A DNA stretch of 44,276 nt, taken from NCBI GenBank assembly GCA_937926445.1, contig CALBAK010000058.1, positions 1 to 44,276 on the forward strand, given 5' to 3'. Below are positions 15,303 through 17,914 of the stretch, in pieces (within the stretch, counting starts at the first letter, position 1; the number at the start of each line of letters is the position of its first letter). Source of the stretch: an uncultured Alphaproteobacteria bacterium (GTDB lineage: Bacteria > Pseudomonadota > Alphaproteobacteria > Geminicoccales > Geminicoccaceae). Below the pieces are notes generated by a model. The model had not been told where the DNA came from and ran no database searches. It was given only the letters and a program-made list of their open reading frames with translations. The translations under genes and the position numbers were made by a program.

Positions 15303-15686
15303 ATGAGCCCCGAGCCGGCGAGCCCCGAGGCGATCGGCCTCGACCAGCGGATCGGCGAGCGGATCCGGCTGCGTCGTACCGAGCTCGGCCTCACCCAGGA
15401 CCAGCTCGCGGCCGCGCTCGGCGTCTCCTACCAGCAAGTCCAAAAATACGAGAACGGTGCCAACCGCATCAGCGCGGTGCGACTCTGGCAGATCGGGCGG
15501 CGTCTCGAGGTTCCTGTCGGCTGGTTCTTCGACGAATCGGCGGAGGACTCTTCCACGGGAGGCGGTCGGATCGCGCACGGCCGCGGCGTACTCGAGGTCG
15601 CGCGCGGTTTCGGCCAGCTGCGCGCGCCCTCGGTCAAGGCGGCGGTGGTCGGCCTTCTGCGCGCCCTCGCCGACCGGGGAATCTGA
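15303..15686 (+). CDS. XRE-family helix-turn-helix regulator (PraR/PhrR-like)
   Basis: A 127-residue DNA-binding protein. The HTH is at about residues 14-66: IGERIRLRRTELGLTQDQLA, then GVSYQQVQKYENGANRISA, ending with LEVPVGWFFDE. The SYQQVQKYENG...RI block is the form typical of rhizobial PraR/PhrR-type regulators, which control quorum sensing, biofilm or stress genes. The C-terminal ~50 residues (GVLEVARGFGQLRAPSVKAAVVGLLRALAD) are helical and may dimerise. ATG at 15303 has GGAGG 13 bases upstream. It is divergent from bamD and ends 9 bp from the convergent parA-like gene. The target genes cannot be told from sequence. Confidence 0.88.
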   Translation: MSPEPASPEAIGLDQRIGERIRLRRTELGLTQDQLAAALGVSYQQVQKYENGANRISAVRLWQIGRRLEVPVGWFFDESAEDSSTGGGRIAHGRGVLEVARGFGQLRAPSVKAAVVGLLRALADRGI

Positions 15687-15695
15687 CCCCTCGCT

Positions 15696-16322
15696 TCAGA
15701 CGGCTTCCTCGACGGCTCGCAAGAGTGGCCGCCATTCCTCGATTGCCGCGCGGGCGAGCCGGGCGGGAGCGTCGAACAGGCTGCGCCCTTCGAGCGCGAG
15801 CTCACCGTAGAGGGACCGCTCGGCCAGCCGGGCCGCCGGCGGATGACCGATCCGGGCGAGGAACGCTTCGAGGCGGCCCGCCGCGCGGGAGCGCGGACGC
15901 AGCCGATTGGCGACGACCAGAACCGGCTTGCGACCCTTGCGGATCGGCTTGAGCTCGTCGAGTCGGGCGAGGAAACGTTCGCTCGAGGCCTCGTCGAAGG
16001 TCGAGGCGAGAACCGGCACGACCACGAGATCGGCGAGCTCGAGCAGGGCCTCCACCTCCTTGCCGCGCAGGGCCGCCGGGGCGTCGATCACGAGCCGGGC
16101 CGTCCCCCCGGGCACCGGGCCGGGCTCCTTGTGCCAAGCTAGCCCGGTAAGGGGCGGCAGCTCGGCCGGGCGCAGCGCGAGCCAGGCGAGTGCCGACCGC
16201 TGTCGGTCGGCATCGGCGAGCGTTGTCGCGAGCCCGCCGCGCGCGAAGGCCCCCGCCAGGTTGACGGCGATCGTGGTCTTGCCGCAGCCGCCCTTGAGGT
16301 TGCTCACGAGAATGCGGATCAT
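15696..16322 (-). CDS. Orphan ParA/MinD-family ATPase coupled to the CYTH-CHAD gene
   Basis: A short (about 208 residues) ParA-type ATPase. It has the deviant Walker A KGGCGKTT (signature Lys10, catalytic Lys15), the Walker A' block LADADRQRSALAWL, Walker B-like LVIDAPAAL, and a late ANRLRPRSR block that reads like the family's nucleotide-base contact. All are intact, so ATP-dependent dimerisation is likely. There is no ParB-like gene, parS-like cluster or plasmid gene near it, so it is not a plasmid partition system. ATG at 16322 overlaps the CYTH-CHAD stop as ATGA, so the two are co-translated. ParA relatives of this size position cell-internal cargo; the cargo here is inferred, not shown. 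Confidence 0.88.
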   Translation of the reverse strand: MIRILVSNLKGGCGKTTIAVNLAGAFARGGLATTLADADRQRSALAWLALRPAELPPLTGLAWHKEPGPVPGGTARLVIDAPAALRGKEVEALLELADLVVVPVLASTFDEASSERFLARLDELKPIRKGRKPVLVVANRLRPRSRAAGRLEAFLARIGHPPAARLAERSLYGELALEGRSLFDAPARLARAAIEEWRPLLRAVEEAV

Positions 16323-17914
16323 CGAGCCTCGCGCCAGAACGGCTCGACCTCGAAGAGCTCGTCGAGCAGTTCGCGCGCCTCGCGCAGGAGGCGGCGACCG
16401 GCGCGGGCGTGCCAGCCGATCACCGCACCCAGTGCGAGGGCGGCGGGGGCGAGCCGGGCATCGCCCGCGGCCGCGGCCAGGAGCTCGCGGGCGAGACCTT
16501 GCGCCACCGCTACGTCGTTGAGGTGGCCGAGCCGGTCCTGCAGTTCGGCGGCACCGCCCGCGAGCCTTCGCACCTCGGCTTCCGGCCAGAGCGAGCCCAG
16601 GAACTCGATCCCGTACCGCAGCTTCTTCAGGGCGATGCGGAGCTCGTGGCGGCCCGCGGCTTCGAGCCGATCGAACCGTCGGCCGAGCTTCTTGACCCGT
16701 CGCCAGCGGCGCTCGAGCCGCTCGGCGGCGAACGGTGGCAGCGGCCCGTCGAGAAGCGCGCGGGCCTCCTCCGAGCCGGACTCCCGGAACCGGCCGAGCT
16801 CGAGCCAAGCGGAAAGATCGAGCCAGAGATCGGCCGCGCGTCGACTCGCGAGCGCCTCGCGCACCCTCGCGTAGAGGGCCGGCCGGCCCTCGGCCAGAAG
16901 AGCGCGCAATGCGGCGCGTTCGGCCTCGAGCCCCTCGATCCCGTCGATCGCCGCCACGAGCTCGCCCGCCAACACGTCGCGGTCGCGGGCAGGCCCGAGC
17001 GCGCCCAGGAGCCAGCGGAGCTCGCCGTTGAGCCGCTCGCGCTCGGCCTCGGGCAAGGCCGGCCGGAAGAGCGAGAGCGCCGAGCGCATTCGCCTCAGAG
17101 CTACCCGCAGCTGATGGACTCCTTCGGGGTCCCGGCCGTCGGCCGCGGCCGCCTGGTTGGCGAGGGCGTGACCGAGGCAGGAAAGGCCGATCCGACGGAA
17201 GGCGTCGCCCACCGACGCCTCGGCCTCGAGCAGGAGGCGGCCCGCTTTGCGCGCCGGCGGCGGCTCGCCGAGGGCGAGCTCGAAGCCGCGGCTCGCTTTG
17301 TCGCGCGGCTCGATGGATAGCGGGGCGAGTGGCCGCAGCTCCTCGACCAGGGCCGCGAGCGCCCGCGGCGGGCCGCGCTCCAGCTCGAGCTCCAGCTCGG
17401 CGATCGGCTCGTGTCGACCGTCGGCCTCGATCCGGCCGCGATCGAGTGCCACCAGGACGACCGCCTCGCACTGCTCGGGCGAGGGCCAGCCTACCGCGAG
17501 TTCGGTCCGAACGATGCGGGTCGCGAAGACCGGCACGAGCTCGCCCGGCAGCACGACACCGACGAGCTCGCGCGCAGCCGGCCCCTTGAAGGCGGCCAGA
17601 TCGGGAATGTCGCCCGCGATCGGGACCTCGAGCTCGACACGATCGGCGGCGGCACTCGTCGTGCGCGAGGGCCCCTTGAGGGTCTGGACCCGACGCCCGC
17701 CGATCCGCCGGATCCTCAGCGCCACCCCGCGGCGGCGCAGCCTTCCGTCGCCGGTGTCGAAATAAACGCTCACGAGACGTCGACGCCGGGCCGGGCGAAG
17801 AGCCCGAGCGACGAGCGCGGGAGCTTCGGCGAGCCGGTCTAGCGCGTCCGGGGGTACGGCGAGCTTTACCTCGATCTCCCGAGCCGGAGCGGCACCGGGC
17901 TCGGCCTTCGTCAT
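16319..17914 (-). CDS. CYTH-CHAD protein (inorganic triphosphatase-like, polyphosphate-binding)
   Basis: A 531-residue two-domain protein. The CYTH (triphosphate tunnel) domain spans about residues 12-215 and begins with the diagnostic ExExK motif EIEVKL (Glu13, Glu15, Lys17); further strand residues are YFDTGDGRLRRRGVALRIRR, QTLKGP, VELEVP and ELELELERG. The CHAD domain (about 235-505) is helical and rich in Arg/His: EGVHQLRVALRRMRSALSLF, then LGPARDRDVL, and a second repeat GRHELRIALKKLRYGIEFL with LGHLNDVAVA. CYTH enzymes usually cleave inorganic triphosphate; CHAD domains bind polyphosphate and in other bacteria localise to polyphosphate granules. ATG at 17914. It is the first gene of a pair with the ParA-like ATPase and diverges from a UspA gene. 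Confidence 0.93.
   Translation of the reverse strand: MTKAEPGAAPAREIEVKLAVPPDALDRLAEAPALVARALRPARRRRLVSVYFDTGDGRLRRRGVALRIRRIGGRRVQTLKGPSRTTSAAADRVELEVPIAGDIPDLAAFKGPAARELVGVVLPGELVPVFATRIVRTELAVGWPSPEQCEAVVLVALDRGRIEADGRHEPIAELELELERGPPRALAALVEELRPLAPLSIEPRDKASRGFELALGEPPPARKAGRLLLEAEASVGDAFRRIGLSCLGHALANQAAAADGRDPEGVHQLRVALRRMRSALSLFRPALPEAERERLNGELRWLLGALGPARDRDVLAGELVAAIDGIEGLEAERAALRALLAEGRPALYARVREALASRRAADLWLDLSAWLELGRFRESGSEEARALLDGPLPPFAAERLERRWRRVKKLGRRFDRLEAAGRHELRIALKKLRYGIEFLGSLWPEAEVRRLAGGAAELQDRLGHLNDVAVAQGLARELLAAAAGDARLAPAALALGAVIGWHARAGRRLLREARELLDELFEVEPFWREAR

Follow-up and report, generated by a model that had tools for sequence, protein, structure and literature searches.

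What does a small ParA-family ATPase do when the gene directly upstream encodes a CYTH-CHAD protein, and could its cargo be the polyphosphate granule? CHAD proteins are found on polyphosphate granules. The question arises from two adjoining genes in the window, by which we mean the whole stretch of DNA that was analysed (44,276 nucleotides). It is contig C58 of a draft genome of 3.7 Mb that comprises 120 contigs, and its gene content and nearest named relative suggest an alphaproteobacterium. A first-pass annotation of the window had suggested that the ATPase may space or segregate the granules, with CHAD as the cargo adaptor.

The gene pair and its surroundings

The features of interest are as follows.

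16319-17914, minus strand: CYTH-CHAD gene, 531 aa (CYTH residues 12-210, CHAD residues 245-475)
15696-16322, minus strand: ParA-family ATPase gene, 208 aa (ParA clade I, hereafter ParA-I)
16319-16322, minus strand: ATGA overlap of the CHAD TGA stop and the ParA ATG start
15303-15686, plus strand: XRE-type helix-turn-helix gene, 127 aa, convergent with the ParA gene

The sequence at the junction reads on the minus strand as the first-pass annotation had it, with the CYTH-CHAD stop and the ParA start overlapping as ATGA, and this overlap suggests that the two proteins are translationally coupled and made together. The pair is flanked by bamD-recN-ligA on one side and, on the other, by genes for a universal stress protein and a D-amino-acid enzyme, ftsZ and ftsA. 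A position between ftsZ and bamD-recN is found in the window and in three of the four opened genomes of its order; the remaining locus, L089, has other neighbours. Of the four order genomes that were opened, two (L088, L091) have a relative of the XRE-type gene near the pair; the gene is not considered part of the CYTH-CHAD/ParA module.

CHAD, ppk1 and ParB each give a single match in the window's genome; since ppk1 is present, polyphosphate can probably be made. The match to ParB is on another contig, C46, where a ParA match of the Soj type adjoins it, and no 16-mer within the window resembles, with up to 3 mismatches, the sequence that we take to be the parS consensus. The earlier statement that neither ParB nor parS is near the pair is therefore borne out, and the parB gene and parS site beside parA by which ParABS partition is recognised are both missing here. 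Neither protein has a PADLOC match, and a role in anti-phage defence was set aside.

Features of the two proteins

Both domains of the CYTH-CHAD protein score above their Pfam cut-offs (CHAD 196.6 bits, cut-off 25.6; CYTH 87.3 bits, cut-off 23.2), and its PDB matches include 6qv5 for CHAD and 5a60, an inorganic triphosphatase. The ExExK motif of the CYTH domain is intact (EIEVK), as it is in most clade-I partners where the motif could be located. The domain is probably active and of the triphosphatase type. In the portion available to us of a 2019 paper, CHAD is described as binding polyphosphate and localising to granules, its overproduction as shifting the granules to the poles and its depletion as having no apparent phenotype (PMC6537752, citing earlier work); the cellular role of CHAD proteins is said there still to await definition (PMC6537752).

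The ParA protein scores above the Pfam cut-offs for CbiA, AAA_31 and MipZ. It has a deviant Walker A motif, KGGCGKT, and residues K10, K15, D39, Q41 and D80 do not vary across any of the 31 orthologues that were aligned. We take K10 and K15 to belong to the deviant Walker A motif with its signature lysine, and the aspartates to be those of Walker A' and Walker B. The ATPase motifs are thus all intact, as had been claimed from the window alone, and this pattern of invariant residues fits an ATP-dependent dimer switch. The best-scoring model is NCBIfam NF041546 (ParA family partition ATPase, an equivalog), which the protein matches at 111.5 bits, below the cut-off of 180; five clade-I relatives scanned with the same model also fall below it, at 117.5-134.1 bits. 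An AF2 model with a mean pLDDT of 95.9 has a ParA-type fold; in the PDB it comes closest to ParF/TP228 ParA, and MipZ, Soj, MinD and McdA rank lower.

Conservation of the pair

The adjacency of CHAD and ParA-like genes, on whose conservation the first-pass annotation had staked its proposal, extends beyond this genome. Within the window's order, 16 of 31 genomes have a ParA-I that scores at least 199 bits, and it lies directly downstream of CYTH-CHAD in all 16; outside the order, 8 of 16 ParA-I orthologues are paired with CHAD, in neighbourhoods unlike that of the window. A CHAD match is present in 24 of the 31 order genomes (23 above the cut-off); in G020 and G022 the contig ends within the CHAD gene, on the side towards ParA, so that its ParA neighbour could not be judged. 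The ppk1 gene accompanies ParA-I in 16 of 16 order genomes and is missing from 6 of the 15 without ParA-I, and five order genomes (G002, G017, G019, G024, G025) keep CHAD and ppk1 without ParA-I. Among 385 genomes of the class, ParA-I (above 150 bits; G382, at 78 bits, was excluded from the clade-I count) occurs in 18 and CHAD in 138. Of the 18 genomes with ParA-I, 17 also have CHAD (Fisher p 1.7e-7, with no correction for relatedness), G353 being the one without a CHAD match.

The remaining 8 of the 16 orthologues outside the order have no CHAD gene within 1.5 kb. At the five unpaired clade-I loci with scanned neighbours, those neighbours that were scanned are unrelated enzymes or unclassified proteins. 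Six of 13 genomes with ParA relatives of the beta/gamma type have no CHAD match, and one of the 13 relatives falls outside clade I in the tree described below. Orphan clade-I-like ParA genes with no adjoining CHAD were also seen in records whose titles mostly name beta- or gammaproteobacteria, Acinetobacter baumannii among them (L092-L103, L173:8001-8645). One clade-I pair belongs to Indioceanicola profundi; the replicon that carries it measures 1.18 Mb and is entered as a plasmid. A profile search of contigs with the clade-I alignment gave no clade-I pair among the matches listed, and named hosts of clade-I pairs are accordingly few.

A second survey started from CHAD, so that ParA would not decide which loci were chosen. 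It covered the 110 CHAD loci with the highest scores in the class: 10 are the ones paired with ParA-I, and the 100 further ones were read up to 2.5 kb on each side. Among the 100 further loci a KGGxGK[ST] gene was found in three, each time directly downstream, on the same strand and from a different ParA clade (clade II). In all, ParA lies directly downstream in 13 of the 110, and 97 have no adjoining ParA. A rough model that sets 4.4 ParA-like matches among 3,900 genes in each genome would lead one to expect about 0.06 such cases; it takes no account of relatedness, which inflates the contrast, so the comparison with 13 is a guide only. The pairing of CHAD with ParA is beyond chance. In a wider search of the phylum, a KGGxGK[ST] gene lay directly downstream in 2 of 29 CHAD loci.

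Gene order was the same wherever it was measured: in each of 32 pairs (24 of clade I and 8 of clade II) CHAD comes first, with ParA on the same strand, and 18 junctions overlap whereas 14 are separated by 2-58 nt. The ParA start was assigned in this count by a fixed rule (the start nearest to 9 residues before Walker A), and the count leaves aside G021, whose ParA gene is incomplete at a contig end, together with 7 of the 15 pairs of clade II.

A second ParA clade beside CHAD

The first record of clade II, titled Actinomycetes bacterium (L132:1128-3456), has a CHAD gene 4 nt upstream of a 248-aa ParA. A clade-II ParA of about 248 aa directly downstream of CHAD, in the same layout as clade I, was found at 15 loci in two phyla.

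Clade-II CHAD-ParA loci: L132:1128-3456, L364-L368, L213, L216, L266, L268, L310, L349, L398, L399, L404

In a tree of 92 ParA proteins, clades I and II are separate, each with 100/99 support, and other ParA proteins fall between them. On this tree the paired state requires 8 changes, so that pairing has more than one origin, or was handed from one ParA lineage to another, or is ancient and has often been lost. In the set of 398 genomes from the window's phylum, 68 have a clade-II relative that scores at least 100 bits, and in at least 6 of the 68 it lies beside CHAD, a lower bound since 30 of 69 matches above 100 bits were opened and the others were judged by their coordinates relative to CHAD matches in the genomes for which these were available; of the first 30 opened loci, 27 have no CHAD within 1.5 kb. 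In the phylum of L132, 6 of the 8 best matches (the query genome included) are beside CHAD, as against none of 22 weaker loci that were opened. CHAD is present somewhere in the genome in 24 of 27 clade-II genomes tested.

The eight clade-II partners that were aligned have CHAD and a CYTH-like part (profile match E 1e-4) without ExExK. One locus, L394:2837-7744, has a tandem run of four genes on one strand in a span of 4.9 kb: a histidine phosphatase gene comes first, then ppk1, then CHAD and last clade-II parA. Among the opened clade-II loci, L394 alone has ppk1 beside parA and CHAD; at L216 a histidine phosphatase gene follows parA.

Several further observations concern the surroundings of clade II. 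Small stand-alone CYTH genes lie next to three clade-II pairs (L396:335-808, L398:6315-6782, L401:5425-5976), as though they substituted for the lost CYTH motif of the fused protein. A common five-gene cluster is found near the pairs at L399, L401 and L404, and at L401 its members match PhoU/APH, RimK, nothing, NUDIX with histidine phosphatase, and histidine phosphatase. Where clade-II ParA occurs in other classes of the window's phylum, many genomes have it near clusters of tRNA pseudouridine synthase and RnfH and not near CHAD (L214, L219, L223, L227, L228, L230). When the neighbours of CHAD-less clade-II ParA were clustered by BLAST and one member per cluster was scanned, the recurrent ones were tRNA pseudouridine synthase, RnfH, a PLP enzyme, BacA, a phage-integrase-type protein and a weak match to a Na/Ca exchanger, with no polyphosphate genes among these recurrent neighbours.

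Search for a contact element on CHAD

Partners of ParA/MinD ATPases are described, in the part of the source available to us, as contacting their ATPase through a charged N-terminal stretch (PMC10241942). The N-termini of CYTH-CHAD proteins paired with ParA-I are short and variable, some with 4 or fewer residues before ExExK, and no charged N-terminal activating peptide is conserved among them. An aromatic-Trp motif at the C-terminus was considered as a docking element and rejected: it is present in 23 of 23 ParA-I-paired proteins, and in 87 of 97 unpaired ones it is nearly as common, hence not specific to ParA. The C-termini of clade-II partners are basic: the mean net charge of the last 15 residues is +4.0 in these partners (8 proteins), +0.4 in clade-I partners (23) and +1.4 in unpaired proteins (97), one truncated partner (L040) having been left out of this comparison. 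An interface between ParA and CHAD other than an N-terminal peptide is possible.

Possible functions of the pair

The functional tie of ParA to CHAD and polyphosphate is strong, being well founded on the conserved gene order, the two ParA clades and the tandem run with ppk1 at one locus. As to mechanism, the best single account is a two-gene polyphosphate module in which ParA positions CHAD-coated granules, a view that we think about evenly balanced between right and wrong. In this module the CYTH-CHAD protein would sit on polyphosphate granules through its CHAD domain, and ParA would be a nucleotide-switching ATPase with the CHAD-coated granule as cargo. ATP-bound ParA dimers would bind the nucleoid non-specifically, and the coated granules would stimulate hydrolysis and so release ParA locally. 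The resulting ParA gradients might hold granules at a distance from one another and give each daughter cell its share, as McdA/McdB do with carboxysomes. The weak point of this account is the partner peptide, which is not evident in the ParA-I partners; the CHAD loci with no adjoining ParA, the ParA genes of both clades that lie away from CHAD, the ParA genomes with no CHAD match and the order genomes that keep CHAD and ppk1 without ParA-I also count against it. We infer granule positioning with CHAD as adaptor from the genes and their arrangement, and likewise infer each of its steps: contact of ParA with CHAD, DNA binding by ParA, stimulation of hydrolysis and movement of granules. The pair would probably be a new cargo class of the ParA/MinD positioning kind. 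A broader proposal, which we hold tentatively and with the balance slightly against it, is that ATP-driven positioning and inheritance of granules is widespread and unrecognised, CHAD serving as adaptor for a dedicated ParA in at least two ParA clades and at least two phyla, and the system working in part with parA away from CHAD.

Instead of placing granules, the ATPase might regulate polyphosphate metabolism, as a switch on the CYTH triphosphatase or on the access of PPK/PPX to CHAD-bound polyphosphate that senses the ATP/ADP ratio. The intact ExExK of the window protein and of most clade-I partners where the motif was found would suit such a role, as would the genes for ppk1 (at one locus), histidine phosphatase or stand-alone CYTH near clade-II pairs, and no positioning peptide is evident on CHAD. 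However, the eight aligned clade-II partners without ExExK have retained their pairing with ParA, which makes control of CYTH catalysis unlikely as the common function, and the predicted ParA fold is of the positioning and partition type; we regard metabolic regulation as unlikely, if worth bearing in mind. Rather improbable, in our judgement, is that the pair signals the state of polyphosphate to the chromosome or the cell cycle: polyphosphate-bound CHAD would capture or release a ParA whose targets are replication, segregation or division, the position of the granules being a by-product. MipZ and Soj are among the structural neighbours of the ParA model, loss of polyphosphate is reported, in the part of the source available, to impair cell-cycle exit in starved P. 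aeruginosa (PMC9239181), and the pair stands between ftsZ and bamD-recN in the window and three of four opened order genomes. The different neighbours at L089 and outside the order nevertheless make the division-gene context look like local synteny, and another ParA match already lies beside the only ParB match, on contig C46.

Two further readings fare worse. If the genes merely shared an operon while serving separate processes, their adjacency would be inherited, and it is true that many occurrences are in related genomes and that the surroundings too are conserved in part of the order. Yet CHAD precedes ParA on the same strand in pairs of two separate ParA clades, the linkage survives across different neighbourhoods, ParA follows CHAD in 13 of 110 loci against about 0.06 expected, and 17 of 18 ParA-I genomes of the class have CHAD; simple co-transcription is highly improbable. 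Hardly any credence can be given to ParA as a domesticated plasmid system that partitions DNA, with CHAD as an accessory polyanion-binding protein in the ParB position. That reading draws on the nearest solved relatives (plasmid ParF/TP228 ParA), on the best-scoring model (an NCBIfam ParA family partition ATPase) and on the recorded plasmid of Indioceanicola profundi, whereas the NCBIfam score is 111.5 bits against a cut-off of 180, the window has no parS-like site, the sole ParB match is elsewhere, and the window pair stands among the housekeeping genes ligA, recN, bamD, ftsZ and ftsA.

Significance and comparison with known systems

Should granule positioning by ParA be correct, a polymer store would join the list of ParA/MinD cargoes, and CHAD proteins would gain a cellular role. 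For the placement of granules and their sharing at division, the pair offers a specific ATPase that can be deleted, together with its adaptor, also in Indioceanicola profundi; with both named, and in a named strain, the question becomes directly testable. As far as the available part shows, a 2025 review names no ATPase for positioning polyphosphate granules and gives ATP dependence as unknown; it names AlgP and states that the granule-placing proteins of Caulobacter are still unidentified (PMC13052382). We found no ParA proposed for polyphosphate granules among titles and the first parts of abstracts, a search with most subscription journals and the separate preprint servers outside its scope and hence no proof of absence. 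The first-pass annotation knew of no described system of this make-up. As far as searched, that holds for the function; it does not hold for the gene arrangement, because parA beside ppk and CHAD is in print for Acidithiobacillus (PMC10892726, PMC6416229, as far as available). There the cluster folD-ppk-parA-CHAD, with parA beside ppk and CYTH-CHAD, is conserved in the genus, and the accessible parts of both papers describe parA solely in terms of plasmid or chromosome partition (PMC10892726, PMC6416229).

AlgP of Pseudomonas aeruginosa is linked, in the part of the source available, to even spacing of granules, the outcome also proposed for the pair; unlike the window ParA it is a histone-H1-like DNA-binding protein and not an ATPase (PMC9239181). 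The whole words ParA and ATPase do not occur in the main text of that paper (PMC9239181). ParF of plasmid TP228 is nearest to the window ParA among solved structures by sequence and fold and is of similar length (206 against 208 aa), but identity over the fold match is about 21% and, in contrast to ParF/ParG, the neighbouring gene here is CYTH-CHAD. The CHAD phosins and YgiF-type CYTH-CHAD proteins have the same domains as the window protein, whereas their genes mostly stand without an adjoining ParA (97 of the 100 further class loci surveyed).

A further comparison is with McdA/McdB, the carboxysome-positioning system of the ParA/MinD family. The pair differs in that its partner is a CYTH-CHAD protein, its putative cargo is polyphosphate, no charged N-terminal peptide is evident, and it is known here from genes alone. 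Like McdA/McdB, it combines a ParA-type ATPase, with no ParB or parS nearby, with an adjoining gene for a putative binder of a cargo other than DNA, and McdA is among its fold matches. The adjoining gene for a cargo-binding partner that is expected of an McdAB-like system is present throughout, CYTH-CHAD being upstream of ParA in every one of the 32 pairs measured.
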